Assembly: GCA_036874045.1 (NCBI GenBank) | Contig: CM072341.1 | Span: 4,972,501-5,036,500, forward strand | Direction of reading: 5' to 3' | Length of the DNA: 64,000 nt | Source of the DNA: Cymodocea nodosa | Lineage: Eukaryota; Streptophyta; Magnoliopsida; Alismatales; Cymodoceaceae | Shown here: positions 28,470 to 54,987 of the stretch, one piece after another | Position numbering within the stretch: the stretch's first letter is position 1 | How the letters are laid out: each line of letters begins with the position of its first letter | The notes under the pieces: generated by a model | What the model saw: the letters and a program-made list of their open reading frames with translations, nothing else | Database searches by the model: none | Told to the model about the DNA's origin: nothing | Translations under genes and position numbers: made by a program

Positions 28470-29722
28470 TCATTCAGCTACCCTCCCAAAGGAGGTATCA
28501 ATTTCATTAATAGTTTTGTTGACAAGGTTAGGTACTACTTGCATTGGCAATCCTCCAGTAGGTCTAACTTCTATTGATTCCTTCTATCTAAGGGGTATAT
28601 TTTTATTCATATTTTGATTTTGAATTGCAGCATTTCCAAATACAAGATCTAGACGATTGTTTAATTGTTGGATTATCTTTTTTAATTTCTCTATTCTAGA
28701 TCCTTGTTCAATTAAAGCTTCATAACTTATATTTTTGTCATTTATATTTTCTCCTCCCTAGAAATTGTTGTTTCTCCAAGATAAATTCGAGTGATTTCTC
28801 CAATTAAGGTTAGAAGAATTTCCAAAGTTATCTTTCTGGTTTCTAGCATAAATAATATCTAGATCATTAACGTTTGCATTCTTTTCTACTAGCCTCTGAT
28901 TTAATGATAACTCTTCTATTTTCTTTGTTAATTCAATTAATTTAACTTCAAGCATAGTACTTGAATCTATTTCATGCATTCCCCTTAGCAATATTCTTTT
29001 ATCTATAATAACTTCAATCAAGTTTTCCAACTATGCAGTTCTTTTTGCAAAGTTTTCTAAATATGCCCATTCTTCTTCACTACATAGTTTTAAAAATCCA
29101 TTCTAACAAGTAGATTCTAATAAAGATTTTGTTGAAACATCTATCCTTCATAAATTATACATATTAATTGTGTTTTACTCATTGCATGATGTGGACATTG
29201 AGTTAGTAAATCTTTAAATCTTTCAAAATATTTCTAAAATGATTCTCCCTGTTTTTGGCTACACATTAATATTTCCTTTTTCTTTTTAATTGTTTGATGT
29301 GTTGGATAATATTTTTCCAGAAAAATAGAGCAAAATTCAGTCTATGTAGAAATTGAATCAAGTGACAAAGTATATAACCATCTCTTAGCTGTGTCTTTTA
29401 AAGCAAAAGGGATATATCTAAGTTTAATAGCATCTATACTCATGTTCGACATTTTCATCATTTGACAAACTTCGTTAAATTCTCTAAGGAAATAATAGGC
29501 ATCCTCTCTTTCTAATCCATGAAAATGTGGCAATTGACTAATATAATTAGATTTCAATTCAAACCTATCTCCCTCAAAGTTTGGCAATCGAATACATGAA
29601 GGTTCATCAACTAATTCAGGATACAGAATTTCCCCTAATAGTTTCTCTACTAGAGTAGTCATATCTTCGTTCTCTTTTAAAGAAAGGTTAGCTACACCCT
29701 TAAGGATTTCGTTAAAGTCCAA
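28470..29722 (-). pseudogene. gag: G2 capsid (retrotransposon gag domain) displaced downstream
   Basis: Contains the Ty3/gypsy capsid domain: FELKSNYISQLPHFHGLE, DAYYFLREFNEVCQMMKM, IKLRYIPFALKDTAKRWLY, then, after a Trp-to-stop change at 29342, TEFCSIFLEKYYPTHQTIK, GESFWKYFERFKDLLTQCPH. This forms the particle shell. A coiled-coil and an Asn/Trp-rich stretch follow (SNLNWRNHSNLSWRNNNF) and the ORF ends VAE, stop 28470-28472. No zinc knuckle follows; that lies at the start of pol about 9 kb upstream. The open frame begins at 29722 with TTG. A conserved stop precedes it in G2 and G3, so the likely start is the Met of DMTTLVEKLLGEIL. Several other stops and frameshifts occur. Confidence 0.87.
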
Positions 29723-29761
29723 TTCAGAAAATATTTCAGTACGTCTTTATGTTGAATAATC

Positions 29762-29862
29762 CTGTGTAGGTGTTGTTACTAATCATTTAATGCTAGGAGA
29801 ATGAATCCATGTACTCATAAACTCTTAACATAAAGTAAAATAGCAGAAGATTAATTACATAC
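29762..29862 (-). other. Predicted GT-AG intron in the leader of the capsid transcript
   Basis: Minus strand reads AGACTG/GTATGTAATTAATC at 29862 and CCTACACAG/G at 29762. In G3 the matching sites are GTATGTAATTAATC at 53614 and CCTACCTAG at 53700. The 5' splice site is fully conserved and the 3' AG is kept despite other changes. Plant-like, U-rich, 87-101 nt. RNA data would be needed to prove it. Confidence 0.6.
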
Positions 29863-29992
29863 CAGTCTAAAGCTTTATATTCAGTAAACAGTTGTTGACG
29901 GATGAAGTTGAATCAGCTGCTTCTCCTTCCAGTTCCCCAACGAATTTCCTTTTCTTCCACAAGTGCTGGTAACTCGTAAATAACATTCTGTT

Positions 29993-30003
29993 CTATATTT
30001 ATA
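29993..30003 (-). promoter_or_regulatory. Internal TATA box for the capsid/F-box unit
   Basis: Minus strand TATAAATATAG, conserved in G3 (53472-53484, TATATATATAAAA). It lies between a dense palindrome cluster upstream and the short intron downstream. The arrangement is that of a second promoter inside the element. Confidence 0.55.
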
Positions 30004-30174
30004 ATGCATGTCCATAAAGTAAATGAATCTCGTTGTAAGAACGTGTCTTGTAACGTGTAGTGTGGTTCCTATTTTTATGGGTACGTGTGCCACTTCTAAT
30101 TTCAAATTTTCAGTAACCGCTAAACCCACAAAGTTTCATTTGTGGCTAAAAGAATAACTGTTTAGCTTAATCCA

Positions 30175-30350
30175 CGAACTAACCTCGTTGAGTTACAGTT
30201 AACTCAACGAACTAGTTTCGGTTATTATTACTAACTCCACGAACTAACTTCGTTGAATTACAAATAACTCAACAGAGTGACCTTATATTATATTATTGAC
30301 CTCGTGAAGTTAAGGTTAACTCAAAGAACTTACTTCGTTGAGTTAACACT
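30175..30350. repeat. Palindrome cluster upstream of the capsid promoter
   Basis: About seven half-sites of AACTCAACGAACT / AGTTCGTTGAGTT and CTCCACGAACT within 175 bp, several paired as hairpins. The homologous G3 cluster is 53120-53310. Confidence 0.85.
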
Positions 30351-30802
30351 TAGCAAATTTCTAAAACTTACTCCTCGTATTAACTTCTATATTTTTTTTT
30401 CTCCTGCATTTTGTCAACTTAAATAAAGTTAAATACATGTCATTAATGAAGTGTTCTAATTAAAACACATTTAAATCTAAACATTATATGAATATTTAAC
30501 TTGTAGTTCATTTCATGTTATGTAGAATTTACATTTCACTTTACATCATGCAAATATTTTCAAGCATTAACCAATTATCTTGCATTTAATCCTGTCATTC
30601 AGCAAATTTGTATATCTTTTAAACAATCTTGCATCTTGTTCAAACAATTATATAATATTCAAGGTAGTTCATCCATTACATCATTTTCAAACATAAATGC
30701 AAACACATCTGAAAAACATATATTCATTTATATGAATAGTTTACATTACAATCAATTAGATATTTTTCATACAAATATATACAAGTAGACGAAAAATATA
30801 AT

Positions 30803-33052
30803 TTAATCTTTTCTCCTAAGTTCATCTACTTCCTTCTAGAGTTTTTCTAATTGTTGCTCTAATTGGTTTATCCTTTCTACGGCTCCTATAATTCCTCCAA
30901 AAGGTTCAGCAATCTCTACAACAGCATAATTTCTATATTCTTTCACTGAAATGGTTCTTGATCTTATCCTTTTGGATGCCCATTTCGTGAAATCAATACT
31001 ATCCACCATCAACAGTGGAATCAGATCTCCATAAAATAATTTCTTCTTTACTGCTCTTAGCTTGGAGATAAAAATAGCAAACCAATTAATCTGAATTCTA
31101 TTCACAATTGCATATGTAGCCCATTTGACAAATTGACTCAGTTCTATATCATGGCCTTGTCGTTGGTAGACATTCTTAATCAAAATGTTAGCTATCATGT
31201 GTGCTTTACCATTTAAGTGCTTTAGTCTATTTAATAATGGCACACCAGGATTGATAGCTAAACAATCCTTTATGATCTGTTCTATCCACTCGACTGCAGT
31301 TGTGCTTTTCAGAATTTCTAGTCCTTCATTCTTCAATCCTAAAATGTTATGGAGAAGCTTTGGTGTTATTTGTACATCAGCTTGCTCCACGTTGGAAATT
31401 AATCCTCTTTCTCCTTCTCTTAAGTTTGCATAAAAGCAAGACACTAGATTCTCATATACTGCACGCCCTCTTTGTTGAGAAATAAACTGTAGTAGACCTT
31501 GGAACTCAAATGAATCCTTAATTTCTAGCATCTCGTCCCAATTTATTGGTCTACTGTATATGATATCATAACCCCTAATCTCTTGGTATTTATTATATGC
31601 TTCTTAACTTCAAAAGTGTACTTCATTCAAAATTGTTGCTTCAGTTGGGTTAGGAATGTGAATTTGTTGCTCTAGAGGGGTTTGTTCTTGAACTTCCACT
31701 TCCATGTGTTGAACTTGAATTGACTGAAAATGCTCTGAAGAATCTTACATTTTTGCTTCTGCTTCTGTCAATGGTGGAGAGCCAGCAGAACTCTTCACTC
31801 TATCTTGAATGCTTTCTAAAATTTGCTGAAGAGTTCTTTGCTCTTTAGTGGAATCTGTCGAGTCATTTCTTTCTATATGTACTTGTTCAGCTTCTTGTTC
31901 AGTTTCTTCTTTTTCTTCTTCCTCCTGACTACCAATCTGCATTGTCACTATTCTTTCTGATTTTGTGGTAGATTAGGATGGAGTTCCGAGCACATCAGCT
32001 TCTGCCCTAATTTATGTTTCTTCTACTTATACGGGCTGTAGATTAGTTTCAACCTGATTTTCTTCTTCTCTTTGCTCTTGTTGTTGCTGCTCCAACTCAT
32101 CCTCAGAATCGGATAGCAGGTTTACAAAAATCGACTTCACAGGCCCTACTGATATTTGCATCTCAAATTTAATCTCTTCTTGATGTTCAAGCACTATCTC
32201 TTTTCCTTTCCTTCTTTTGATTAATTGTGTCTAGTCTTCCTCTTCTTCTTTTGAGATTAAATCTACAAAAATAGGCTCTGTAGGCTTTTGAGCCACAAGT
32301 ATTGGCTCTTCCTGTTTAACTTTTTCTATAATTGCTAGTCTCAAAGGACCAACTTTAGCTCCTCTTGTAGTAGTCTGGCAGTGGTTTCTTGATGTTATTC
32401 AACTTTAATTTTGTATTGGGTTTTCAACTTTTCTACAGCCCTCTTTTTGCACCGTGCATCAAACACCAGATGTGCTATATCTTCTACCAACTCTTCTGGT
32501 TCTCCTTGGTCTTTACTAATTTGAATCAGTTCTTGAAATTCTCTTATTTCTTCCTCAATAGAAGGCCCCAAAATTGCTGCTCTTTCTAACGGCCTTGGTG
32601 GTGGAACTGAAGGTCCAGGTTGTTGTTCCTTAGAGATAGGTCTTTTGGCAGTCGGCTCCTCTTATTCTTTAGTTGCCTGTTCTTCATTTTCTTTCCTTTG
32701 TTGCTCCTAGATTGCCCACTAAGCCCGTCTACCTATGCGTCTTTTGAACCAAAGCTGAGACTTATGTTGGATCAATTCTAGGGCAACTTCGTTATTTGGC
32801 CCGATTCTTCTCTCTACTTACAACAACTTCCGTAGCAACTTTTATTCTTGTTTCCATATTCTGAGGTATTTGTATAACCAAATCTACTAACACTTTCCTC
32901 CAATAGAAAAGGTCAGATTCTACCTTTTGTAGTTTTTTTTCCCTTGTTGTATTCTTGATTTTCTGCCTTGTGTGCCATTCCACCAAATCTTTAAGAAATT
33001 CTAACGTGTCAACTGCATTTTCCTAGAACTCAGGTGTCATCTTCCTCATCAT
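30803..33052 (-). pseudogene. G2 accessory ORF: 'putative plant transposon protein' type
   Basis: About 749 codons, starting MMRKMTPEF at 33052 (stop after F), with a basic N-terminal part (YWRKVLVDLVIQIPQNM). A Pro/Gln/Glu-rich middle (31700-32700) includes the acidic GSQEEEEKEETEQEAEQ stretch. The folded C-terminal core (30836-31531) is open for 231 codons: FEFQGLLQFISQQRGRAVY, FYANLREGERGLI, ITPKLLHNILGLKNE, LNGKAHMIANILIKN, NRIQINWFAIFISKL, KKKLFYGDLIP, ending in a coiled coil (RINQLEQQLEKL). It sits between integrase and capsid, preceded by its own palindrome cluster. The core is homologous to the C1 ORF at 11904-14180. Function unknown; Athila relatives carry an env-like ORF after integrase, but I see no signal peptide or membrane segment here. 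Confidence 0.75.
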
Positions 33053-33209
33053 GGAGTTACGCAACGGAACGAAATCGCTCTGATATCTACTGGTCTAAGT
33101 TCTAAATGATTCTATGGATAATGCCCCCAAACCAAAAGTTTAGTATAAATAAGCCCTAAGTTTAGGCAGGTAATCGGGTCATTTCCCACACAAACTCTCG
33201 TTCTCTCAT

Positions 33210-33370
33210 CTGTGGAATTACGGTTAACTCCACGGACTAAGTCTGTGGACTTAACTATAGTACTCTGTTGAGTTATAGTTAACTCAATGGGGTAAGTTCG
33301 TTAACTTAACGTAGACTCAACGGAGTAAGTTTGTTGAGTTAAGTGTAACTCAATAGACTTTCTGTAAAGT
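33210..33370. repeat. Palindrome cluster upstream of the G2 accessory ORF
   Basis: Alternating AACTCCACGGACT/AGTCTGTGGACTTAA and GTTGAGTTATAGTTAACTC units. Ends about 160 bp before the ORF start at 33052. Confidence 0.85.
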
Positions 33371-33409
33371 TATATCTAATATAAATACATATAATAATAC
33401 TTTTTACCT

Positions 33410-33509: not shown

Positions 33510-33544
<35 letters not shown>

Positions 33545-33780: not shown

Positions 33781-35109
33781 CTAAGTAAAGCTCAGGTTGT
33801 CCTCTACTCTTACTTCTTCTATAATTCCAAAGAACTTTTGGTATTTTCAAAATAGGTCTAAGTCTTTGTCCATTTAATTTAAATATGTTCTGATTTTTAG
33901 GATTTTCAATTTCAATAGCTCTATAGGGATAAATATTTCAAATTATGAAAGGTCCTGCCCATCTAGATCTTAATTTTCCTAGATGGTTATGGAGTCTAGT
34001 CATGTAAAGATATACTTCTTATCCTATTTCAAAGGTTTTTGGAATAATTTTCCTATCATGCCATAACTTCATTTTTTCTTTTTCTCTTACAGTTTTCGAA
34101 TAAGCTTCATTCCTAAATTCTTCTAATCCAATCAATTGTATTTTTCTATTCTCAACAGCTTGATTTAAATTAGTGTTCAGAGTTTTTAATGCCCAATAAG
34201 CTTTATGTTCAATTTCAGTTGGTAAATGACAACTTTTTCCATATACTAGCCTAAAAGGTGACATACCTAAGCTTGTCTTATAAGCAGTTCTATAAGCCCA
34301 AAGTACATCTATCAATCTATTAGCCCAATTTGTTCTAGTAGGATTTACTACTTTTTCTAAGATTAACTTAATTTGTTTGTTTGCACTTTCTACTTGTCCA
34401 CTTGTTTGCGGATGATATGATGTTGCAATTTTGTGATTTACTCTATATTTCTTCATTAAGGCTTCAAAACTTCTATTATAGAAATGAGTTCCTCTATCAC
34501 TGATAATAGCTTTAAGTATCCCAAATGTAGCAATTATATTTGTTCTTATAAATTATATTACTACTTTGTTGTCATTAGTTTTTGTAGGAATAGCTTCTAT
34601 CCATTTAGATACATAATCCACCCCCAACAATATATAATTAAATTGATTAGACATAGGAAATTGACCCATAAAATCTATTCCCCACACATCAAAGATTTCA
34701 ACCTCAACAATAGGATTAAGAGGCATCATATTTCTCTTTGATATTCTTCCGATTTGTTGACATTTTAAACAGCTTAAGCAATATTTATGAGCATCTTTGA
34801 ATAGTGTTGGCCAATAAAATCTACATTGTAGAATTTTAGCAATAGTTTTCCCTGAACCAAAATGCCCTCCACATGCTTGGTCATGGTAGAAAGACAATAT
34901 GCTTTGATATTCAGTTTCTGGAACACACCTCCTTAAAACTAGATTAGGACATTTCTTAAATAAGTATGGGTCTTTCCAACAATAATATTTTACTCTTGAA
35001 AAGAACAATTTCTTATCTTGTCTATTCCAATCCTTAGGTGTTAAACTAGTAACTAAGTAATTAACTATGTCTACATACCAATGCATTGTGTTGATGGTCA
35101 TTAATTGTT
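33780..35109 (-). pseudogene. pol: G2 integrase
   Basis: HHCC zinc-binding part (HDQACGGHFG ... CLSCLKCQQIG, about 34745-34890). The DDE core has Asp in WGIDFMGQFP (near 34680), Asp in SDRGTHF (34481-34504) and Glu in GQVESANKQ (34383-34403). The C-terminal part RSRWAGPFII / NGQRLRPI carries no chromodomain, which argues against the chromovirus lineage. Stops: TAA at 34553-34555, shared with G3, and another after KTFEIG (34019). Integrase inserts the cDNA into the genome. Confidence 0.92.
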
Positions 35110-36782
35110 CATCAAGAAAATTATCCTTAATTTCAATATTTGATTTTTCTATTTGTAATCTTGATAAATGATCTGCTACTACTTTCTCACAACCTTTTTT
35201 ATCTTTAATTTCTAAATCAAATTCTTACAATAATAATATTCATCAGATTAATCTAGGTTTGGTCTCTTTCTTTGCTATTAGGTGTTTTAAAGCTGAATGA
35301 TCCATGTATACTATCAATTTAGCTCCAACCAAATATGATCTAAACTTTTCTAAGGCAAACACAGCAGCTAATAGCTCTTTTTTAGTAGTTATGTAATTAA
35401 CTTGAGCATTATTTAAGGTTTTGCTTACATAATAAATCACTCTAAGAGATTTTTCTATCTTCTGTCCCAACACTGCTCCTACAGCAAAATTAGATGCATC
35501 ACACATTAATTCAAATGGATGGCTCCAATCAGGTGCTTGAATTATAGGAGTTGAAATTAAGCTAGTTTTAAGCTTGCAAAATGCTTCTTTGCAATTTTTA
35601 TCAAAGTTGAATGGGACACCTTTTAATAGATTAGTTAAAGGTCTAGCTATTTTGCTAAAATCTTTAATAAATCTTCTATAAAATCTAGCATGTCCTAGAA
35701 ATGATCTAATATCTTTTACTGATTTAGGTTCTAGTAGATTAGAAATTACTTCTATTTTAACTTTATCTACTTCCAACCCCTTCTTTGAAATAACATGTCC
35801 CAAGACTATTCCTTGTTTAACCATGAAGTGACATTTTTCCCAATTTAGAACCAAACTTTTTTCCACACAGTGTTTTAATACATGGTCTAAATTGTTTAAA
35901 CACACTTCGTATGAAGTTCCATAAACAGTAAAATCATCCATAAATATTTCTAAAAAATCTTTAGTCATTTCAGTGAACTACATACACCTTTGAAAGCTGG
36001 CTAGTGCATTGCATAATCCGAATGGCATTCTCTTAAAAGCATAAGTTCCATTAGGACAGGTGAAAGTTGTTTTCTCTTGATCCTCTAATGCTATTGGGAC
36101 TTGGTTATATCCTAAATACCCATCTAGGAAACAAAAATATTTTTGCCCTACTAATTTTTTTAGCATTTGATCTATGAAAAGTAAGGGAAAATGATCTTTC
36201 CTAGTCACTACATTCAGCTTTCTATAGTCTATACACACTCTCCAGCCTCATTGAATTCTAGTAGGTATCAAGTCTTGACTTTAATTTCTAATATCTATTA
36301 ATCTTGATTTCTTGGGAACTACATGGATTGGATTAACCCATGAGCTATCAAAAATCGGATAAATTATGTCATTATCTAACCATTTCACTATTTCCTTCCT
36401 GACTACTTCTTTAAGATTTGGATTTAATCTCCTCTCAGGAATTCTAATAGGTTTAGCATTCTCTTCTAAATATATGTGGTGACAGCATAAAGTTGCACTT
36501 AACCCTTTTATATCAGTCATAGTCCATCCTATTGCTTCTTTATAAGTTTTTACTACATCTTTTAATTTGATCCTCTTTTAAATCTGAAGCAATAATGATT
36601 GGACATGTTCATTTTTCTTCCAGAAATATATAGGTTAATTCAGGAGGTAAAGGTTTTAATTCTAACTGTTGCCCATCAGAAGCTAAAGCTCCTAATTGAA
36701 CATCATCCTTTTCTAAATTAATTTCTTCCTAATCTCCTTCTATATTTATGCTTTCACTTTCTTCTAAAGTTTTAGAATTGAG
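35110..36782 (-). pseudogene. pol: G2 reverse transcriptase and RNase H
   Basis: RT with KEVVRKEIVKWLDNDIIYP, CIDYRKLNVVTRKDHFPL, FLDGYLGYNQV, PNGTYAFKRMPFGLCNA, and the catalytic FMDDFTVYG (MDD codons at 35933-35941). This Athila/Tat-type sequence replaces the more common YIDD. RNase H follows: [46 protein letters not shown], and [10 protein letters not shown] in the damaged end. Stops lie at 35969, 36239 and near 35230. Confidence 0.93.
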
Positions 36783-37418
36783 TTACCTATTTAATTCTTC
36801 TTGAATCACATCATCTAGCATATCTCCTTCATCCTCTAAAAAGTCTATAGTATGTAAGGACATTTCTAACTCCTCAAACTTTTCTAGTTTGAAAATGTTT
36901 AATTGAGTATCCTCATTACCATATGCTAACTTCATTACTCTAGTTTTACGATTAATAACAGCCCCTGATGTTGCTAAAAATAGTCTTCCCAAAATTAAAG
37001 ATGTATCACTATTTTTATGCTTAATTTGTTGGGAATCCAAAATTACAATATCAATAGGATATATAAAGTTTTTGATTTTAATTAAAACATCCTCTATTTT
37101 TCCTCTAAGGTATCTTATATTTATGTTAGCTAATTGAATAATAGTCCTAGTAGGGATTAAGCCTTCTAATCCTAAGGATGCAAATATATCACTTGGCATA
37201 ACATTTATACCTACACCTAGGTCTATTAAGGTTCTTTCTAAAATGGTATTTCCTATGGTGCATGATATAACAGGAATTCCAAGATCAGATAACTTTTTAG
37301 GAATTTGTGGCAGAAATAGGGAACTACTTTGCTCAGCTATAAAGACTTTCCTTAAAACTTTTCGCTCTCTTTCCTTAGTACACTAATCCTTAAGAAATTT
37401 AGCACAAGGTGGCATTTT
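36783..37418 (-). pseudogene. pol: G2 aspartic protease
   Basis: Active-site segment DLGVGIN at 37202-37230, followed by NVMPSDIFASLGLEGL, IQLANINIRYLRGKIEDVL and SLILGRLFLATSGAVI. Pepsin-like retroelement protease that cuts the polyprotein. The Ala after DLG seen in G1 and G3 (DLGAGIN) is Val here. A stop lies upstream near 37383. Confidence 0.9.
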
Positions 37419-38417
37419 CTACAATAAGTCTAACAAAGGAATGTTAACTTGTACTTTTTCAAAAATTTCTCTAAATTTTTCTTGTTTTTCAAGAAATATT
37501 TGTTGTAATCTTTCAAGATAGGGTGCTAATGATTGTGATGTAAAAGCTTCTTTTCCTTTCATTTGATTAGTTTGATTACTTTTAGTCTCATTTTCAGATT
37601 TAGATTTTTCTTCATTGATTTCTATATTTTCAGATATTACATTTTCATTATCATTTTGATTTTTGTTCTTATCCACCTTCATATTATTTTCGTTTTGAAT
37701 TCTTGATGGTATATCAGTTCCATATCTTAATGTTATACATACATCTTCCAGATTTTCGTTACTTTCTTGATGTTCTTGTATATCATTTTCGTGATTATGA
37801 TCTTCAACTGTTTTTAGTTTTAAATTGCATTCTTTAAATTCTATTGCATTGGTATTTTCTTTTGTTTGTATGTCTTGCAAATTATGCAAATCTATAATAT
37901 TAAAGTTTTCATTTGTGTTTTCCTGTTGCATAACTTGTAATTTCATTGTAAACTCATCCAATGCTTTTAGTTTTTTTTCCAGATCATCTAATCTCATTGC
38001 ATTCAATTTTTGATCAATTTTCATTATGGTTTTTTCAGTTTCGTAAATGATATCAATTTTAGGTTCTGAATATACTTCTTTATAGTTTAATTCGTTGACT
38101 TCTTGTTGCTAACACATAAATTGTTCTAGTTTGTCCATGTTTTGTTCTAAGTTACGCTCTAGTCTATCATACCTATGCCAAACTTCCTTATCTCTCAACA
38201 TATTACACATTCTAAGTTGACCATTGGTTGGGTAAATCATAGGATTCTCATACTCAAATCTATTATAGTGAAGATGATTCATTTGTTGTTTATGTGATCT
38301 AACCATCTACAATCGTCTCAGTTTCAAACAATCAGAAATGTCATGACCTTCCAAATTACAGAATTCACATATGCTAACTACAGGTTTCAGAAATCTTTGA
38401 GCATAACCATATGCCAT
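37419..38417 (-). pseudogene. G2 zinc knuckle and linker at the pol N-terminus
   Basis: Starts MAYGYAQRFLKP at 38417, about 80 bp inside the primer site. A CCHC knuckle (CEFC, H, C) lies at about 38329-38369. Then comes a Tyr/Asn/Gln-rich segment, a coiled coil (LDDLEKKLKALDEFTMKLQ) and an acidic linker, leading into PLLDLL before the protease. This is the nucleocapsid half of Gag; the capsid half that should precede it is absent and lies at 28470-29722. Stops after LRRL (about 38307) and FMC (38109). Confidence 0.88.
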
Positions 38418-38498: not shown

Positions 38499-38516
38499 TC
38501 ACCAGCAATGGCGCTA
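38499..38516 (-). other. G2 primer binding site
   Basis: Minus strand TAGCGCCATTGCTGGTGA, a decayed form of TGGCGCCGTTGCCGGGGA, complementary to the 3' end of plant tRNA-Asp as in many Athila-type elements. Seven bases from the LTR end at 38524. Confidence 0.85.
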
Positions 38517-38523
38517 GAAAACT

Positions 38524-44090: not shown

Positions 44091-45065
44091 AGGAATGTTA
44101 ACTTATACTTTTTCAAAAATTTCTCTGATTTTTTCTTGTTTTTCAGGAATTGTTTGTTGTAATCTTTCAGGATAGGGTGCTAAAGATTTTGATTTCAAAG
44201 ACTCTTTTTCTTTCAGTTGATTTGTTTGATCATTTTTAGCTTCAATTGCAGATTCAGATTGTTTTTTAGTAATTTCTAGATTTTCAACTATTACATTTTC
44301 ATTATCATTTTGATTTTTACTCTTGTCCACCTTCATATCATTTTCATTTTGAGTTCTTGGTGGTATATCTGTTCCAGATCTTAATGTTACACATACATCT
44401 TCCAGATTTTCGTTACTTTCATGATGTTTTTGTATATCATTTTCGTGATTATGATCTTCAATTGTTTTTAGTTTTAAAGTGCATTCTTTAAATTCTCTTA
44501 CATTTGTGTTTTTTGTTTGTTGTATATTTTGCAAGTTGTGCAGGTTTATAACATTATAATTTTCATTGTCTTGTTGCAAAACTTGTATTTTCATTGCATT
44601 TTTATCTAATGCTTTTAATTTTTTTTCCAAATCATTTAATTTCATTGCATTCAATTTTTGATTAATTTTCTTTATGGCTTTTTCAGTTTCGTAAATTATA
44701 TGATGTTTAGGTTCTGAATATGCCTCCTTATAGTTTAGTTGGTTGACTTCTTGTTGTTGACACACAAAGTATTCCAGTTTGTCCAGATTTTGCTCTATAC
44801 TATGCTCCAGTCTGTCATAGCTATCCCAAACTTCAGTGTCTCTCATCATATTACACATTCTATACTGACCATCAGTTGGGTGAACTATAGGATTCTCATA
44901 CTCAACTCTATTATATTGAGGATAATTCATTTGTTGTTCATGGGATCTATCAATCTGTAAATGTCTCAATTTCAAACAATCAGAAATGTCGTGTCCTTCA
45001 GAATTGCAGAATTCACATATGCTAATTAAAGGTTTCAGAAATCTTTGAGCATAAACATATGCCAT
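44091..45065 (-). pseudogene. G1 zinc knuckle and linker at the pol N-terminus
   Basis: MAYVYAQRFLKP start at 45065. The frame is open further up to 45143, ending only 18 bp inside the primer site. CCHC knuckle CEFCNSEGHDISDC at about 44978-45017, then the coiled coil LNDLEKKLKALDKNAMKIQ and an acidic linker. Open for 346 codons to a stop at 44103 (Gln or similar lost). With no room for a capsid domain between primer site and knuckle, G1 confirms the unusual order. Confidence 0.9.
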
Positions 45066-45163: not shown

Positions 45164-45182
45164 TTCCCCGGCAACGGCGCCA
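45164..45182 (-). other. G1 primer binding site (tRNA-Asp)
   Basis: Minus strand TGGCGCCGTTGCCGGGGAA, a perfect form of the plant tRNA-Asp site, seven bases from the LTR end at 45190. A CAATT pentamer run (45139-45166) lies beside it. Confidence 0.95.
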
Positions 45183-45189
45183 TAAAACT

Positions 45190-47040
45190 TGTTCGCGTCT
45201 TCCCAGCACTACACTAGAAAGACTTGGATTTGTTACTTCTATTTTTACTTAGTTAATTTATCTTTATGCCTATTCTTTCTTTTAGAAGTAAACAAACAAC
45301 CTTTAATACAATTTAGATATTAATTCCAACTTCTGCTTTAACTACAAGTGCATAGTGTCTATTGTGTCAATGTACAAGTACAGGTCGATCCCACAAGGAA
45401 TTGCTGACGAACTTAAGAAATGTTTGATTGTGAACAATTCAAATTTATATTCAATAAGCACTCCGTTGAGTTACAGTTAACTCAACGGACTAAGTTCGTT
45501 GAGTTATTGATAACTCAACGGACTATCCTCGTGGACTTAAGTTAACTCCACGAGCCTGTCTCTTCTTTATAATACTACTAATTACAGAGGAATTCAGCCA
45601 TCCATTGGGCGATTCCACAGATTGTAAATAACATCAATTAAGCTTTTTAATGCTAGTTAACATTGGATTTATCATTATGCAATACTAACATTCAGATGAT
45701 TCAAACAGTAACCATTAAAATCTTTAAGTTGTTTTGTACGAACCAATTTAGTAAACTGCAAAATTAAAACTAACATAAAACAATCAAAAAATTGATACAG
45801 ATAACATTAATCACGATACAACACAAACAATACAACACTCAAATACAACATACAAACAAAGATAAATTGTTTTTGGTATTTTTGTTTTGATGTGATGGGC
45901 GAAATGTGAAATGTAAAGTAATTTCTCTTGACAGTAAATACTTCTGACACTACTTGCAACGCGATTACACCACTGAAAATTGAACCACTTACAATTCTGT
46001 CTCCTCTCCCTATAGAATCGCGAGTCCAGAATTGCAAGATGATCTCCTCTTCAGCATACAGGCATCAACCCGAAGCCAAGGCTAAAAGCTTTATGATCTT
46101 CTGAAATATGAATCCGCGCTTGGTGAAAATGTCTTCCCTTCCCGCGACGCGATTACTCCTCACAGTAGTTGTCAGGCACTGTGTTTGGCTCGAAATCGAC
46201 CCGACATCAGGCAAGTGTCCTCACAGACCTTCGATGATTGGTGATTATGGTGGTGATACGATGGTTGGTGTGATACTTCAGAGAATCACCAGTATTGTCT
46301 GCAAAAAGCTTGGTGCTCCTCCTCTATATACACTGGCCGTCCATCGATCACACTCTTTTTTTTTTCTTCTTTTCTTTTATATTTCTTCAGTGGTAATTGC
46401 TTCTGCTTGAATGGTCGGTTGGGTTTCCTTCCTTCAGATCAACGGCGATGATTTCTTTCACCCTACACGATTGAATTCCTGCGTGATACGTGCAAACGTG
46501 GTTTTTCCTTCCAACTGTCTGTTCCTGCAACTACTACAGTGGCATATTAGAAAATATATAGTCCGTGGAGTTATAGATAACTCAACGGACTTCCTTCGTT
46601 GATTTAACTATAAAACACGTGCAAAAATAACAACTTAAGTTTATAACACTAACCTAACGCGTTGCCTTAGTGTATTTTCATGTAACACAACGCGTGTAGT
46701 TATACTAACTTAACGAGTTATAACGTAAGTAAATCTACCAACTCTCAACATGTGTCAGCAGCAGTTTAAACATAAAATAACATTCCGGAGGGTTACAGGT
46801 ATAACTATCCGATGCTCAGATGCATTTTCGGATACTTAAGAATTTCACAGCCTGTAATTTACCAACAGTTCATAAATGTACTAAATTAACATTAATTCCC
46901 CAAAATTAAGCAGATTCTTCAATTAAAGTATATAACAGTGCAATTATAACATAATAGCTTAATTCTCATATGATAAGCTAAATATTATGCAATTAACCAT
47001 CATTTAACCGTTAATAATATGCACTTTTTCATTCTAAACA
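45190..47040 (-). mobile_element. G1 5' LTR, 1.85 kb
   Basis: TGTTTAGAATG (at 47040) to CGAACA (at 45190) on the minus strand. It is inserted in the LTR of G3: the sequence at 47041 resumes as TTGGCCGAATTCC, which in intact LTRs follows AATGG. 27-bp palindrome at 45528-45554. Confidence 0.92.
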
Positions 47041-47449
47041 TTGGCCGAATTCCTCTATAAATAGCAGTATTAAATAGGAAAGGTAGGCTCGTGGAGTTAA
47101 CTTAAGTCCACGAGGTTAGTCCATTGAGTTAGACATAACTCAACGAACTTTGTCCGTTGAGTTAACTATAACTCAACAGAGAGCTTATTGAATATATAAA
47201 TTTGATTGTTAAAAATGGAACAATTTGCAATTCTTAAGCAATTCCCTGTGGGAGTGACCTGTACTTGCACACTAATACAATAGACACTGTGCACTTGTAG
47301 TTAAAATACAAATTGGAATTAATATCTAATTTGTGTGAAAAGTTTTTTGTTTACTTCTAAAAAGGAATAGGCATAAAGACAAATTAACTAAGTAAAAATA
47401 GAAGTTAACAAGTCCAAGTTTTTTTGGCACGTTGCTGGGTAACCAAACA
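47041..47449 (+). mobile_element. G3 5' LTR remnant
   Basis: R/U5 end only, with the 27-bp palindrome at 47088-47114 and a second hairpin at 47130-47180. Ends ACA at 47449. Confidence 0.88.
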
Positions 47450-47508
47450 AGTTTTCTAGCGCCGTTGCCAGGGAACCAATCAAATTTCCTAGCGTCGTTG
47501 CCTGGGAA
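47425..47508 (+). repeat. Three tandem primer-site-like repeats at the LTR/interior junction
   Basis: Units start at 47425 (TGGCACGTTGCTGGGTAA, inside the LTR end), 47457 (TAGCGCCGTTGCCAGGGAA, the expected primer site after a 7-base spacer) and 47490 (TAGCGTCGTTGCCTGGGAA), each within an AAGTTTTC...CCAA frame of about 33 bp. G4 at 60968-61020 shows two copies; G1 has a decayed first copy inside its LTR end. Confidence 0.85.
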
Positions 47509-47583: not shown

Positions 47584-48540
47584 ATGGCATATGCTTATGC
47601 TCAAAGATTTCTGAAACCTGTAGTTAGCATATGTGAATTCTGCAATTCTAAAGGACACGGCATTTCTGATTGTTTGAAACTGAGACATTTGTAGATGGTT
47701 AGATCACATGAACAACAAATGAATTATCCTCAATATAATAGAGCCAAGTATGAGAATCCTATGGTTTACCCAACTGATGGTCAGTATAGAATGTGTAATA
47801 TGTTGAGAGACACGGAAGTTTGGGATAGGTATGACAAACTAGAGCGTAGTATAGAGCAAAACCTACACAAACTAGAATACTTCATGTGTCAGCAACAAGA
47901 AATCAACCAATTAAACTATAAGGAAGCATATTCAGAACCTAAAATGGATATAATTTACGAAACTGAAAAAACCATAATGAAAATTGATCAAAAATTGAAT
48001 GCAATGAGATTAGATGATTTGGAAAGAAAACTAAAAGCATTGGACGAATATACAATGAAAATACAAGTTATGCAACAGGACAATGGAAATTATAATGTTA
48101 TAGATCTGCATAATTTGCAAAATACACAGCCAAAAGAAAATACTAATGTAAGAGAATTTAAAGAATGCACTTTAAAACTAAAAACAATTGAAGATCATAA
48201 TCACAAAAATGATATACAAAAACATCATGAGAGTAACGAAAATCTGGAAGATGTATGCGTAACATTAAAATCTGGAACTGATATACCATCAAGAACTCAA
48301 AATGAAAATAATATGAAGGTGGATAAGAGTAAAAATCAAAATGATAATGAAAATGTAATAGTTGAAAATCTAGAAATCACTGAAGGATAATTTGAATCTG
48401 CTAATGAGGCTAAAAATGATCAAACAAATCAAATGAAAGAAAAAGAATCTTTTAAATCACAATCTTTAGCACCCTATCTTGAAATATTACAACAAACAAT
48501 ACCTGAAAAACAAGAAAAAATTAGAGAAATTTTTGAAAAA
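47584..48540 (+). pseudogene. G3 zinc knuckle and linker at the pol N-terminus
   Basis: ATG at 47584 (MAYAYAQRFLKPVVS), CCHC knuckle at 47632-47673 (CEFC, H, C), a stop before MVRSHEQQM (47692), a Tyr/Asn-rich segment, coiled coil LDDLERKLKALDEYTMKIQ and an acidic linker with a stop at 48388. Only about 75 bp separate it from the last primer-site repeat, so the capsid domain is not upstream. Confidence 0.9.
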
Positions 48541-49350
48541 GTACAAGTTAACATTCCTTTGTTAGATCTATTGCAGAAAATGCCACCTTGTGCTAAATTT
48601 CTGAAGGATTGGTGTACTAAGAAAAGAGAGCGAAAAGTTCTTAGAAAGGTCTTTTTAGTTGAGCAAAGTAGTTCCCTATTTCTACTACAAATTCCTAAAA
48701 AGTTATATGATCTTGGAATCCCTATTATATCATGCACTATAGAAAATACTATTCTAGAAAGAACCTTCATAGACTTAGGTGCAGGTATAAATGTTATGCC
48801 AAGTGATATATTTGCATCCTTAGAATTAGAAGGCTTAACTCCTACTAGTACGGTTATTTAATTAGCTGATAGAAGTATAAGATACCCTAGAGGAAAAATA
48901 GAGGATGTCTTAATTAAAATCAAAAACTTTATATATCCTATTGATATTGTAATTTTGGATTCCCAACAAATTAAGCATAAAAATAGTGATACATCTTTAA
49001 TTTTGGGAAGACCATTTTTAGCAACATCAGGGGCTGTTATAAATTGTAAAACTGGAGTAATGAAGTTAGCATATGGTAATGAGGATACTCAATTAAATAT
49101 TTTCAAACCGGAAAGGTTTGAGGAGTTAGAAATGTCCTTACATACCATAGGCTTTTTAGAGGATGAAGGAGATACATTAGAGGATGTGATTTAAGAAGAA
49201 TTAAATAGGCAAATCAATCCTGAAACTTTAGAGGAAAGTGAAAGCATAAATATAGAAGGAGATCTGGAAGAAATTAATTTAGAAAATGATGATGTTCAAT
49301 TAGGATCTCTAGCTTCTGATGGGCAACATTTAGAATTAAAACCTTTACCT
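48541..49350 (+). pseudogene. pol: G3 aspartic protease
   Basis: CAKFLKDWCTKK, then TFIDLGAGINVMPSDIF (active site about 48771-48790), a stop at 48859 in place of Gln in VIQLAD, then YPRGKIEDVL and LGRPFLATSGAVINC. A stop follows LEDVI (49192). Confidence 0.9.
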
Positions 49351-50950
49351 CCTGAATTGCCCTATATATTTTTGGAAGAGAAAAGAACCTGTCCAATCAT
49401 TATTGCTTCAGATTTAAAAGAGGATCAAATAGCTAAATTAAAAGATGTAGTGAAAAGTTATAAAGAAGCAATAGGATGGACTATGACTGATATAAAAGAA
49501 TTAAGTTCAACTTTATGTTGTCACCACATATATTTAGAAGAGAATGCTAAACCTGTTAGAATTCCTGAGAGGAGATTAAATCCAAACCTTAAAGAAGTAG
49601 TCAGGAAGGAAATAGTGAAATTGTTAGATAATGACATAATTTATCCGATTTCTAATAGCTCATGGGTTAGCAATCCACGTAATTCCCAAGAAATCAGGAT
49701 TAACAGTTATTAGGAATGAAAGTCAAGACTTGATACCTACTAGAATTCAATTAGGCTGGAGAGTATGTATAGATTATAGAAAGCTGAATGCTGTGACTAG
49801 GAAAGATCATTTTCCCTTACCTTTTATAGATCAAATGCTAGAAAGACTAGCAGGGCTAGAATATTTTTGTTTCCTAGACGGGTATTCAGGTTATAATCAA
49901 ATTCCAGTAGTATTAGAGGATCAAGAGAAAACAACTTTCACCTGTCCTAATGGAACTTATTAAGAGAATGCCATTCGGATTATGCAATGCACCAGCAACC
50001 TTTAAAAGATGTATGCAAGGCATATTTACTGGAATGACTGAAGATTTTTTAGAAATATTCATGGATGATTTTACTATATATGGCAACTCATATGAAGTTT
50101 GTTTAAAAAATTTAGACCAAATATTAAAATGCTGTGTAGAAAAAAATTTGGTTCTAAATTGGGAAAAATGTCACTTCATGGTTAAACAAGGAATAGTCTT
50201 AGGGCATGTTGTTTCTAAGAAAGGGTTGGAAGTAGATAAAGCTAAAATAGAAGTAATTTCTAATCTACCAGAACCTAAATCAGTAAAAGGTATTAGATCA
50301 TTTCTAGGACATGCTAGATTTTATAGAAGATTTATTAAAGATTTTAGCAAAATAGCTAGACCTTTAACTAATCTATTAAAAGATGTCCCATTCAATTTGA
50401 TAAAAATTGCAAAGAAGCATTTTTCAAGCTTAAAACTAGCTTAATTTTAACTCCTATAATTCAAGCACCTGTTTGGAGCCATCCATTTGAATTAATGTGC
50501 GATGCATTTGATTTTGCTATAGGAGCAGTGTTGGGACAGAAGATAGAAAAATCTCCTAGAGTGATTCATTATGCAAGCAAAAACCTTAAATGATGCTCAA
50601 GTTAATTACACAACTACTGAAAAAGAGCTATTAGCTATTGTGTTTGCCTTAGAAAAGTTTAGATCATATTTGATTGGAGCTAAAGTGATAATATACACAG
50701 ATCATTCAGCTTTAAAACACCTAATAGCAAAAAAAAGACTAAGCCTTGATTGATCCGATGGATATTATTATTACAAGAATTTGATCTAGAAATTAAAAAT
50801 AAAAAGGTTGTGAGAATGTAGTAGCAGATCATTTATCAAGATTACAAATAGAAAAATCAAATATTGAAATTAAGGATAATTTTCCTGATGAACAATTAAT
50901 GACCATCAATACAATACCTTGGTATGCAGACATAGTTAATTACTTAGTTA
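49351..50950 (+). pseudogene. pol: G3 reverse transcriptase and RNase H
   Basis: RT N-part 49357-49670; a frameshift near 49670, where the SWVSPIHVVPKK region is damaged. Then CIDYRKLNAVTRKDHFPLP, FLDGYSGYNQI, a second frameshift at PNGTY/KRMPFGLC (about 49960), and catalytic FMDDFTIYG (MDD codons 50061-50069). RNase H has a frameshift at about 50400; the catalytic DAS reads DAF, and [19 protein letters not shown] and DHSALKHLI follow. Not functional. Confidence 0.92.
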
Positions 50951-51911
50951 CTAGTTTAACACCTAAGGATTGGAATAGATAGGATAAGAAATTGTTTTTC
51001 TCAAGAGTAAAATATTACTATTGGGAAGACCCATACTTATTTAAGAAATGTCCTGATCTGGTTTTAAGGAGGTGTGTTCCAGAAACTAAATATCAGAGTA
51101 TATTGTCTTTCTATCATGACCAAGCTTGTGGAAGGCATTTTGGCTCAGGAAAAACTAGTGCAAAAGTCTGCAATGTGGATTTTATTGGCCAACACTATTC
51201 AAAGATGCTCATAAATATTGCTTAAGTTGTTTAAGATGTCAACAAATAGGAAGAATATCAAAGAGGAATATGATGCCTCTTAATCCTATTGTTGAAGTTG
51301 AAATCTTTGATGTGTGGGGAATAGATTTTATAGGTCCATTTCCTATGTCTAATCAATTTAATTACATATTGTTGGGGGAAGATTATATGTATCTAAATGG
51401 ATAGAAGTTATTCCTACAAAAATTAATGACAACAAAGTGGTAATATAATTTATAAGAACCAATATATTTGCTAGATTTGGAATACCTAAATCTATTATCA
51501 ATGATAGAGGAACTCATTTCTGTAATAGAAGTTTTGAAGCCTTAATGAAGAAATATGGAGTAAACCACAAAATTGCAACATCATATCATCCGCAAATAAG
51601 TGGACAAGTAGAAAGTACAAACAAACAAATTAAGTTAATCTTAGAAAAAGTAGTAAATCCTACTAGAACAAATTGGGCTAATAGATTGATAGATGCACTT
51701 TGGGCTTATAGAACTACTTATAAGACATGCTTAGGTATGTCACCTTTTAAGCTAGTATATGGAAAAAGTTGTCATTTACCAGCTGAAATAGAACATAAAG
51801 CTTATTGGGCATTAAAAACTCTGAACACTAATTTAAATCAAGCTGCTGAAAATAGGAAAATGCAATTAATTGAATTAGAAGAATTTAGGAATAAAGCTTA
51901 TTCGAAGACTA
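50951..51911 (+). pseudogene. pol: G3 integrase, C-terminus deleted
   Basis: Zinc-binding region with CLRCQQIG, then the core: GIDFIGPFP (about 51319), NDRGTHF (51499), GQVESTNKQ (51603) and the open stretch [14 protein letters not shown] onward. Stops and a frameshift near 51180. TAA at 51446-51448 is at the same codon as in G2. At about 51911 (after AYSKT) a deletion joins the frame to unrelated downstream sequence with CGGTT-type motifs. Confidence 0.9.
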
Positions 51912-52129
51912 AAAACTTAGTATCGGTTCAATTGGAAAAAAATTCGGTCTGATTGAAACATAGTATTAGTTAAACTGGTAAAAACCGAAGAAAAAAAAAA
52001 CTATTATCTTAAGTATTTTTTTATTATTTTTATATATCTGTTTGTATGGGAGGTCCATTGAGTTATGCTTAACTCAACGAACTTACTCCGTTGAGTCTTA
52101 AGTTATAGATTCCTAAGTTATATTGAAAA
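51912..52129 (+). other. G3 junction spacer
   Basis: Remnant of the CGGTTNAACC motif zone (51915-51985), an A/T run and one palindrome pair (52045-52110). No gene. Confidence 0.6.
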
Positions 52130-52708
52130 AATTAAATAGGAAGAGCCAGTACCTGTGGCTCAAAGGCGTGTAAAGCCTATGTTTATAGATTTAATCTCAG
52201 AAGAAGAAGAGGAAGACTAGGCATAATTAACAAGAAGAAGAAACAGAAATTAGGGCAAAAGCTAATTTGCCCATGACTCCATCCCAATCTACCACAGAAT
52301 CAAAAAGAACAGTGACAATGCAGATTGGTAGTCAAGAGGAAGAAGAAAGAACAGATAATGAACAAGAAGCTGAACAAAGCCATATAAAAAAAAATGACTT
52401 TACAAATTCGACTGAATTTAATGAAACAATTCAAGACAGAGTGGAGAGTTCTGCCGGCTCACCACCACAAACAAAAGCAGAAGTAAATGTTCAGGAATCT
52501 GTAGAACATTTTTAGCAAGTTCAAGTTCAGCTTATCCAAAAGGATAAGATCAAGAATCATTTCAATGAAAGAATACAAAAATTATGCTGCAGCTGAAGTA
52601 TCTGTACCTTCTGGAGGCATTATTGGAGTTGTAAAAAGGATAGAATAATTAGAGCAACAATTAGAAAAACTCTAGAAGGAAGTAGATGAACTTAGGAATA
52701 GAGGTTAA
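52130..52708 (+). pseudogene. G3 remnant of the accessory plant transposon ORF
   Basis: Keeps the acidic middle (VKPMFIDLISEEEEED, then MQIGSQEEEERTDNEQEAEQ at about 52318) and the last 55 or so codons (DKIKNHFNERIQ ... LEQQLEKL, stop at 52673-52675 shared with G2, ending RNRG). About 750 bp of folded core found in G2 (30950-31700) is deleted near 52520, and the 5' part is missing. Confidence 0.8.
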
Positions 52709-53119
52709 TTGTATAGTTTGTCTACTTGTACTTATATATTTGTATGAAAAATATCTGATTTGATTGTACTGTAATTAATTCATATGAATGAATATATGTT
52801 TTTCAGATATATTTTTCATGCGTGTTTAGAATGATGAAATGGATGAACTATATTGAATGTTATATAATTTGTGGAATAGTTTACTGAATGACAAGATTAA
52901 ATAATAGATGCTTGAAAATATCTACATGCTGCAAGGTAAAATGTAAATTCTACATAACATGAAATGAACTGCAAGTTAAATATTTATATAATGTTCAGAT
53001 TTAAATGAATTTTGATTAGAATGCTGCATTAATGACATATATTTAACTTTATTTCAGTTAACAAAATTCATAGGAGAAAAAAAAAAACATAGAGGTACTT
53101 ACGAGGAGTAAACTTAGAG
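52709..53119 (+). other. G3 spacer before the capsid promoter
   Basis: AT-rich, colinear with 30360-30800 of G2; no ORF or motif recognised apart from an A-run at 53079-53090. Confidence 0.6.
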
Positions 53120-53310
53120 GTTGTAAGTGTTAACTCAACGAAGTAAGTTCATTGAGTTAAACTTAACTCCACAAGGTCAGTAATATAATATAAGGTCACT
53201 TCGTTGAGTTATCTGTAACTCAACGAAGTTAGTCTGTGGAGTTAGCAATAGTAACCGACATTGTTCCTTTGAGTTATCTGTAACTCAACGAGGTTAGTTC
53301 GTGGATTAAG
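53120..53310. repeat. G3 palindrome cluster upstream of the capsid promoter
   Basis: Same series of AACTCAACGAAG / GTTGAGTTA and GTCTGTGGAGTTAG units as 30175-30350, kept in number and order. Confidence 0.85.
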
Positions 53311-53471
53311 CAGAATAGTTATTCTTTTAACCACGAATGAAACTTCGTCGGCCTAGTGGTTACCAAAATTTGAAATTAGTAGTGGTAAACGTACCCAAAA
53401 AAACAGGAACCACGCTGCACGTTGCAAGACACGTTTTTGCAACGAGATTTATTTACTTTATGGATGTGCAT

Positions 53472-53484
53472 TATATATATAAAA
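53472..53484 (+). promoter_or_regulatory. G3 internal TATA box
   Basis: TATATATATAAAA, at the position of TATAAATATAG in G2 and about 130 bp before the conserved splice donor at 53614. Confidence 0.5.
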
Positions 53485-53613
53485 TAGAATGTTATTTACG
53501 AATTACCAGCACTTTTAAAAGAAAGGAGAATGCATTGGGGGAACTGGAAGGAGAAGTAGCTGATTCGACTTCATCTGTCAACAAATATTTACTGAATGGA
53601 AAACTTCAGACTG

Positions 53614-53700
53614 GTATGTAATTAATCTTCTACTATTTTATTTATGAGCACATGGACTCATTCTCTGAGCACTAAACGATTAGTAAGAACACCTACCTAG
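53614..53700 (+). other. G3 predicted GT-AG intron in the capsid leader
   Basis: GTATGTAATTAATC donor identical to G2 and acceptor CCTACCTAG at 53700. The upstream exon contains a 94-codon open frame (53337-53621) that is not kept in G2, so I treat it as untranslated leader. Confidence 0.58.
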
Positions 53701-53739
53701 GAATATTCAACATAAAGGCGTACTGAAACATTTTCTGAA

Positions 53740-54987
53740 CTAGACTTTAATGAAATCCTTTAGGGTGTAGCTAACCTTTCTTTAAAAGAGAACATAGAGA
53801 TGGCTACTCTAGTAGAAAAACCATTAGGAGAAATTCTGTACCCTGAATTAGTTGATAAACCTTAATGTATTCGATTGCTAAACTTTGAGGGAGATAGATT
53901 TGAACTAAAATCTAATTCTATTAGTCAATCGCCACATTTTCATAGATTAGAAAGAGAGGATGCCTATTATTTCCTTAGAGAATTTAACGAAGTTTGTCAA
54001 ATGATGAAAATGCTGAACATGAGTATAGATGCTATTAAACTTAGATATATCCCTTTTGCTTTAAAAGACACAGCTAAGAGATGGTTATATACTCTATCGC
54101 CTGATTCAATTTCTGCATGGACTGAATTTTGCTCTATTTTTCTAGAAAAATATTATCCAACACATCAAACGATTAAAAAGAAAAAAGAAATATTAATGTG
54201 TAGCCAAAAACAGGGTGAATCATTTTGGAAATATTTTGAAAGATTTAAAGATTTACTGACTCAATGTCCACATCATGCAATGAGTAAAGCACAATTAATA
54301 GGTATAATTTACGAAGGCATAGATGTTTCAACGAAATCTTTATTAGAATCTACTGGTCAAAATGGATTTCTAAAACTATGTAGTGAAGAAGTATGGGCAT
54401 ATTTAGAAAACTTTGCAAAAAGAACTACACAATGGGAAAACTCGACTGAAGCTATTACAGATAAAAGAATATTGCTAAGAGGAATGCATGAAATAGATTC
54501 AAGTACTATGCTTCAAGTGAAATTAACTGAATTAATAAAGAAAATAGAAGAGTTATCATTAAATCAAAAGCTAGCAGAAAAGAATGTAAACATTAATGAT
54601 TTAGATATTATTTATGCTAGAAACTAGAAAGATAACTTTGGAAATTCTGATAATCCTAATTGGAGAAATCACTCAAATTTATCTTGGAGAAACAACAATT
54701 TCCAGGGAGGAGAAAATATAAATGAGAAGAATATAAGTTACGAAGTATTACATGAACAAGGATCTAGAATAGAGAAATTAGAAAAGATAATCCAACAATT
54801 AAACAATCGTCTAGATTTTGTATTTGGAAATGCTGTAATTCAAAATCAGAATAGAAACATACCACTTAGACAGAAGGAATCAATGGAAGTTAGACCTACT
54901 GGAGGATTGCCAATACAAGTAATACCTAACCTTGTCAATAGAACTATTAATGAAATTGATACATCTTCTGGGAGGATAGCTGAATGA
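53740..54987 (+). pseudogene. gag: G3 capsid (retrotransposon gag domain), displaced downstream
   Basis: Open for 250 codons at 53875-54627: FELKSNSISQSPHFHRLER, DAYYFLREFNEVCQMMKM, ALKDTAKRWLYTLSPDSIS, FCSIFLEKYYPTHQTI, GESFWKYFERFKDLLTQCPH, then a coiled coil. The Trp lost in G2 (29342) is intact here. Stops: within EILKG (53761), at DKP/CIRL (53863) and after YARN (54625). It ends RIAE, stop 54985-54987. The capsid core itself looks intact, so it decayed late or was under constraint. Confidence 0.9.

Follow-up and report, generated by a model that had tools for sequence, protein, structure and literature searches.

Can a long terminal repeat (LTR) retrotransposon carry its gag gene behind its polymerase? 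This question is raised by a 64-kb stretch of contig C13 (CM072341.1) of Cymodocea nodosa, here called the window, which contains three related elements, G1, G2 and G3. A preliminary description of the window had reported a rearranged gypsy gene order, with the capsid split from the nucleocapsid and polymerase and moved downstream. Having searched the whole genome (374.6 Mb in 28 contigs), we confirm that the observation made in the window is real, and find that it is wider than was reported. Gag sits behind integrase as a gene of its own, and it seems reasonably likely that it is expressed from a separate Gag mRNA and that Pol, which begins with a zinc knuckle termed NC', would reach the particle via the element RNA. 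It also seems reasonably probable that these elements are a radiation of LTR retroelements with a circularly permuted genome, pol leading and gag closing it, in which Gag and Pol are uncoupled, Pol has its own knuckle and, in the family of the window, RNA binding by zinc knuckles has been handed over entirely from Gag to Pol.

Pol precedes gag in the elements of the window

The window elements (family A) have the order LTR, primer-binding site (PBS), NC' (a CCHC knuckle), protease (PR), reverse transcriptase (RT), ribonuclease H (RH), integrase (IN), accessory open reading frame (ORF), capsid/gag, F-box gene, polypurine tract (PPT) and LTR, with a pol ORF that reads NC' (CX2CX4HX4C)-linker-PR-RT-RH-IN. 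In G1, G2 and G3 only 106-134 bp separate the LTR end from the ATG of an ORF starting MAYxYAQRFL; as the preliminary description had noted, this leaves no room for a capsid, and none was found between the LTR end and the knuckle ORF in any of the three. Behind pol, in both G2 and G3, come the accessory ORF, gag, F-box gene, purine tract and LTR, in that order. The G3 capsid (53866-54624) matches PF03732 (E = 2.4e-20); that of G2 (29596-28839) is frameshifted and was detected with tblastn, its N-terminal ORF alone giving no Pfam match. The LTRs of G2 are 90.3% identical over 1830 columns, the 3' LTR ending abruptly at 23487.

Primer sites, knuckle ORFs and capsid domains all lie where they had been placed previously. 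G1, which had been cited beside G2 and G3, does have a primer site followed by a knuckle ORF, but is only a 5' fragment adjoining a G3 LTR fragment. Similarly, the argument that two independent copies exclude a local effect is not one on which we rely, since G2 and G3 are neighbours and thus weaker evidence of independence; the conclusion that the arrangement is not local nevertheless stands, as a family trait of copies elsewhere in the genome.

The same order recurs across the genome and in other families

A capsid search of the genome yielded 6721 first-look candidates, the best 150 of which were scored. When 10-kb stretches upstream of six family-A capsids were fetched, all six had linker-PR-RT-RH-IN before the capsid in the same direction, bearing out the claim that the capsid lies 6-9 kb downstream in a rearranged gene order. 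No capsid occurred between LTR and NC' in any of five family-A 5' ends (G1, G2, G3, L044 and L047). Thirty family-A capsid loci, including the window's own G3, were then scanned with 1.5 kb on either side: an F-box lay downstream in 29, the accessory ORF upstream in 26 and IN upstream in one, NC', PR or RT lay downstream in none, and no neighbour was seen in L033. One copy (L044/L051) has a 5' LTR as well as a purine tract and the start of a 3' LTR; the two LTRs can be compared over 721 bp (95% alike), up to an interruption in the 3' LTR.

The eight loci in the genome that score best for PF03732 belong to two other families, B1 and B2, with capsids 44-48% identical to that of the window, and IN lies upstream of the capsid in all eight. 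One B2 copy, on contig C9, has a perfect 5-bp target-site duplication (TSD), CTACA, which closes the 5' flank and opens the 3' flank. Its LTRs, ending ..CGTACA, are 95.2% alike over 2506 columns, and it has the primer site AGTTTTTGGCGCCGTTGCC and the purine tract GTGTGGGGGTATT. Inside it (locus L007) IN is followed by gag; because the copy is bounded by a TSD, nesting and assembly error are ruled out for the order IN-then-gag. Another B2 copy (L045) reads LTR, PBS (at 2630), an ORF with the knuckle CTKCMLFDHENDEC, PR, RT, RH, IN and gag.

Families C to F were found with a database protein containing capsid and nucleocapsid (CA-NC; P0001), which gave 5982 candidates in the genome, the best 118 scored and 119 matches listed. 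Ten of the listed matches were read, two being family A. In the other eight (L054-L061) the capsid is 42-64% identical to that of the window, IN lies just upstream of gag in seven, and protease was found within 1.5 kb downstream of gag in none. Grouped by pairwise capsid identity (40-65% between families), the elements in which IN precedes gag fall into seven families: A, B1, B2, C, D, E and F.

The order could also be examined by position alone. As query we used a gag-first Vitis protein (P0073) comprising a gag end, the LRSG motif and protease; of 9290 genome candidates the best 91 were scored. Its first 25 residues were reached by none of the 91. Five matches began at residues 26-28, 17 at 92-106, 48 at 107-113, which is the gag/protease junction, and 21 at residue 152 or later, i.e., 86 began at residue 92 or beyond. 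Two of the five early starts come from B2 (L045 and the copy of L008); in these the knuckle of the query meets NC'. By comparison, the gag part was matched by all 16 gag-first proteins from other plants, a control set picked because in each a single ORF spans the gag end and protease, and compared as proteins rather than by genome scan. For each of the 91 protease places we also looked for a partner among 175 gag entries, on the same strand and within 10 kb, the entries being all 150 of the PF03732 listing plus the 25 of 119 P0001 matches that reach beyond the capsid, with at least one gene in both. Gag was downstream in 14 pairs (13 protease places) and upstream in none, 78 of the 91 places having no listed gag nearby. 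A capsid in the normal place, the counter-case named in the preliminary description, was seen neither at the five family-A 5' ends checked nor upstream in this pairing.

The whole gag gene was displaced

In alignments, the downstream gags of families A, B1 and B2 comprise the capsid, an NPxWRNHPNFSW motif and the end LPSQPxPNP or a variant of it, and stop at the point where gag-first proteins run on into ITTLRSGK and protease. The gag of family C has the same end, and the LRSG motif or a variant remains on pol. Because gag ends at this junction while LRSG stays on pol, the break lies between gag and protease, with the whole gag gene behind IN.

This bears on the earlier claim that the capsid had been split from the nucleocapsid. 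A CCHC knuckle accompanies the capsid in the downstream gags of B2, C, D, E and F (intact in two of three B2 loci), and with CA-NC gags behind IN we reject relocation of the capsid alone. A gag knuckle was found in none of 30 family-A loci and none of five B1 loci. At the other end, pol begins with at least one knuckle in all four families read, i.e., A, B1 (CFSCFASDHATSEC in L052), B2 and C (two knuckles in L064). The knuckle-less gag of A and B1 is thus likely to reflect later loss, and the capsid/nucleocapsid split of the preliminary description is likely to be a later state.

How might the arrangement have arisen? In a protease tree, a branch supported at 100/99 sets four permuted rows (two A, B1 and B2) apart from 25 rows from other plants, which are unnamed or generically named proteins; the tree was rooted at its midpoint, and the B1 row, a long one, combines two pieces. 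This is consistent with, but does not prove, one ancestral rearrangement. Among 120 listed database relatives, of which those named are from Vitis, Populus, Rhododendron, Malania and Cinnamomum, the gene order could be told for 17, which encode the end of gag together with protease in a single ORF. Pol before gag was not found in the relatives compared here. A circular permutation would have placed the LTR boundary, formerly in front of gag, at the gag/protease junction, via a tandem or nested copy. Alternatively, gag may have been copied to the 3' side, the front copy shrinking to NC' and the rear copy losing its knuckle in some families. The co-occurrence of both knuckles in B2 and C, with the front one alone in A and B1, would fit such a duplication. 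However, apart from the CCHC spacing the NC' of B2 has little in common with gag knuckles (best E = 0.010, 20% identity), and in the leaders read from B2 and C the stretch from PBS to NC' gave no capsid match. We regard an origin by duplication as quite possible, though less likely than not.

Expression of a distal gag

The genomic RNA of these elements would start in the LTR and have NC'-Pol as its first ORF. Because gag is distal, Gag would need either its own mRNA, from an internal promoter or by splicing, or internal initiation. Pol, lacking Gag sequences, would have to be packaged in another way, and could be packaged by NC' binding the element RNA, the knuckle on Pol then playing the part that genomic RNA plays in the uptake of foamy virus Pol. 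In the window family and B1, with no gag knuckle, NC' or other residues of gag would have to select the RNA. The gene layout would be compatible with uncoupled expression of Gag and Pol and with Pol packaging via NC'.

Consistent with a separate Gag mRNA, the family-A gap before gag contains a predicted TATA-like box and a predicted splice donor (GT), each present in all 32 aligned rows, and a predicted AG acceptor, which keeps its column in 29 of the 31 rows that have letters at that point, although the aligned copies are about 90% alike anyway. Acceptor-like sites were also predicted, by eye, in the gap between IN and gag of B1 and B2. The alternative is that one full-length RNA serves for both Gag and Pol, gag being translated by reinitiation, internal ribosome entry or readthrough with no mRNA of its own. 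The shortness of the gap in the B and C families (about 0.2-0.5 kb) would suit this, and plant pararetroviruses are described as translating polycistronic RNAs (PMC5902531). Against these points must be set the stops between IN and gag as well as the predicted family-A signals, and we consider a single RNA unlikely.

Is the downstream gag a live gene?

Ratios of nonsynonymous to synonymous substitution (dN/dS) were estimated by the Nei-Gojobori method for 11 segments among family-A copies, with six to nine rows for segments other than capsid, gag end and F-box. The lowest was that of the capsid (0.196, 37 rows), a value biased downward because likeness of the capsid protein was the basis for picking the rows; all of the values are pushed upward by post-insertion decay. 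The accessory ORF gave 0.21, IN 0.32 and 0.26, RH 0.33, NC' 0.36, the linker 0.37, RT 0.45, the C-terminal part of gag 0.49, protease 0.51 and the F-box 0.53. Conservation of the capsid at the same place across families is a stronger argument for a live gene than dN/dS. The predicted structure of the capsid is of low confidence (mean predicted local distance difference test score, pLDDT, 62), and its best structural matches are Arc and retroviral capsids, with a best E of 0.024 and none reaching 0.001; the capsid sequence profile reaches retroviral capsid C-terminal domains with E = 8e-4.

It is very improbable that the elements are non-autonomous, with the downstream capsid a mere passenger and particles supplied by a gag-first helper. 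The copies in the window are degraded, which would fit this, but there was no gag-first copy among the best 91 scored matches, the dN/dS of the capsid is low even if selection of rows favours that outcome, and the capsid is kept behind IN in seven families. Nested insertion, inverted duplication or misassembly at this one place, as might be suspected from G1, G2 and G3 lying head to head, with G1 abutting the G3 LTR, in a window full of fragments, is scarcely credible as the source of the order and was rejected on the strength of the six of six copies elsewhere, the other families and the clean TSD-bounded insertion.

In addition to the degraded window copies, the bias in the capsid dN/dS and the similarity of the rows aligned before gag, several points weigh against a permuted, pol-first element with its own gag gene. 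NC' was recognised in five of the six fetched family-A copies, the other (L040) having an LTR and then the linker without recognisable NC'; among nine family-A copies NC' is intact in six and has lost a ligand in three. At L058, the exception among the eight P0001 loci, gag has no IN or PR in its vicinity. A leftover of an LTR in the gap from IN to gag, which would have proved permutation, was not found, a low-stringency comparison yielding only short dispersed repeats. The genome searches score the best candidates only (150 of 6721, 118 of 5982 and 91 of 9290), and gag-first copies could have been missed. Finally, the ends of the C9 copy were examined in separate pieces, the parts read being LTRs, leader, IN and gag, and pol starts were read in A, B1, B2 and C, the evidence for D, E and F being IN and gag.

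Relation to known elements

We take the elements to be Ty3/gypsy retrotransposons, probably of the Athila lineage. The C9 copy has paired LTRs, PBS, PPT and TSD, and PR-RT-RH-IN is present in L039-L045; the Ty3/gypsy order GAG-PROT-RT-RH-INT is not, gag coming last. The features of an Athila gag (PF03732 capsid, CX2CX4HX4C knuckle and LRSG linker) are all present but relocated, the window-family gag being without a knuckle. Instead of the single, gag-first gag-PR-RT-RH-IN ORF of Athila, gag is a separate ORF behind IN, and we therefore file the elements as a permuted relative rather than as canonical Athila members. The capsid and the NPxWRNHPNFSW and LRSG motifs are shared with the gag-first plant proteins compared here, which we take to be Athila, a name absent from their records. 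A few bases past the LTR end in G1, L045 and L064 lies TGGCGCCGTTGCCGGGG, a candidate match to the 3' end of tRNA-Asp. As in Athila, Calypso and Diaspora (plant Ty3/gypsy elements of the OTA superclade), a primer site just past a long LTR, a CX2CX4HX4C knuckle and PR-RT-RH-IN are found here, together with the extra ORF after IN of most of their members; unlike them, gag is separate and behind IN, and pol opens with its own knuckle. Diaspora and Calypso are described as using tRNA-Asp, and Ogre as having an extra ORF between LTR and gag (PMC1142308). Tat/Ogre is placed in the same OTA superclade (PMC6317226), and the portions of these sources available to us do not describe gag behind IN in it.

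Among more distant systems, bdelloid rotifer Juno and Vesta have extra ORFs after IN, and Juno1 and Juno2 an additional pol knuckle (PMC5408684). Both features recall the elements described here, but the bdelloid Gag is ORF1, in front of pol. The same text ascribes one circularly permuted bdelloid scaffold to a possible 1-LTR circle.

We also compared the elements with foamy viruses (Spumaretrovirinae). The foamy gene order is gag-pol-env, whereas in the present elements pol leads and Gag would be the protein produced separately. Foamy Pol is made from a spliced mRNA without Gag sequences, and genomic RNA is required for its encapsidation (PMC3705302). The likeness, i.e., a Pol without Gag sequences that needs another packaging route, is a functional one only.

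Full-text literature searches, with most subscription papers outside their scope, listed no account of gag lying behind IN in an LTR retrotransposon. A scan of IMG/VR with the capsid gave six stretches that matched the pattern, none encoding a relative, and protein database searches gave five matches to the window capsid and none to the window NC'-linker among 796 candidates. Detection and classification of LTR retroelements assume a leading gag and a Pol that enters the particle fused to Gag. REXdb, a large reference survey, assigned 8453 elements to Ty3/gypsy on the order GAG-PROT-RT-RH-INT, 159 of them without an identified GAG, and removed elements with unexpected domain orders in every case as likely mispredictions (PMC6317226); pol-first elements may thus be overlooked elsewhere. 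A natural, abundant and diverse pol-first group makes it possible to test whether Gag and Pol must be joined for assembly, and whether a polymerase can bring its own RNA-binding domain instead, with two states on view, i.e., a knuckle on both proteins or on Pol only.

Features of the window and minor observations

Coordinates are collected in Table 1.

Table 1. Features of the family-A elements in the window
Feature	Position	Strand	Remark
G2 5' LTR, starts TGTTTAG, ends ..AAACA	38524..40510	-	90.3% to 3' LTR
G2 primer-site-like sequence, degenerate	38501..38517	-	by eye
G2 NC', pol ORF start (38417), CCHC knuckle CEFCNLEGHDISDC	38253..38417	-	
G2 linker-PR-RT-RH-IN	34022..38252	-	
G2 accessory ORF	30839..31603	-	weak PF20167, E 3.9e-6, below curated cut-off
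Predicted TATA box, putative internal promoter before G2 gag	29993..30003	-	prediction; TATA-like site in 32/32 aligned rows
Predicted intron in 5' untranslated region before G2 gag, GTATGT..CAG	29762..29862	-	prediction; GT 32/32, AG 29/31 rows
G2 gag gene: capsid and gag C-terminal part, no knuckle, degraded	28470..29662	-	
G2 F-box gene within element, degraded	27190..28265	-	Pfam match on G3 copy
G2 PPT	25294..25304	-	by eye
G2 3' LTR, cut off at 23487	23487..25293	-	
G1 5' LTR	45190..47040	-	
G1 primer site TGGCGCCGTTGCCGGGG	45166..45182	-	
G1 NC' knuckle CEFCNSEGHDISDC, MAYVYAQRFL ORF start 45065	44901..45065	-	
G1 linker-PR-RT-RH and start of IN, truncated	41763..44900	-	
G3 5' LTR fragment adjoining G1 LTR start	47041..47449	+	
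G3 primer-site-like sequence, more PBS-like repeats on either side	47456..47473	+	by eye
G3 NC' knuckle CEFCNSKGHGISDC, ORF start 47584	47584..47748	+	
G3 linker-PR-RT-RH-IN, frameshifted, degraded	47749..51910	+	
G3 accessory ORF remnant	52511..52672	+	
G3 gag gene with in-frame stops: capsid (PF03732) plus C-terminal part of gag, knuckle absent	53800..54987	+	
G3 F-box gene (PF00646)	55174..56266	+	
G3 PPT, ends GGTATGGGGGGAG	58099..58111	+	by eye
LTR downstream of G3, holds insertion, then PBS-like stretch 61000-61018	58112..60994	+	
Third copy, truncated: gag end, F-box, 3' non-coding	3104..6417	+	

The F-box gene that family A carries between gag and PPT (at 29 of 30 loci; in the window at 27190-28265, 55174-56266 and 3475-3933) is a captured host-type gene, the capture perhaps being old; family D has a distant F-box (36% identity) behind gag (L054:3207-3641). 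In L043 (C14:12141321) the capsid match lies within an open frame of 677 amino acids and the F-box match begins within the gag end, possibly a gag/F-box fusion.

At the end of the G3 LTR (47410-47500) there are two to three tandem PBS-like repeats, which may stem from aberrant priming, and a PBS-like sequence follows the LTR downstream of G3 (60994-61027), as if a second, deleted internal region began there. The same LTR holds an insertion of about 0.6 kb (58271-58901) with the inverted ends GGGGGTATTTGTGCACCTAGAAAATGG and its near complement, resembling by eye a small DNA transposon. In L046, two adjacent 470-bp units are 99.6% alike and the stretch matches parts of the family-A LTR twice; this is a recent duplication inside an LTR. 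In L064 (reverse complement, 1-900), a family-A gag in the opposite orientation adjoins the family-C LTR region. A dispersed palindromic motif (approximately AACTCAACGAA..TTCGTTGAGTT) occurs before the accessory ORF, before gag and before the F-box gene (33210-33360, 30160-30350, 28320-28380 and 26690-26760), as well as in the LTRs, and is possibly a shared regulatory or structural element.

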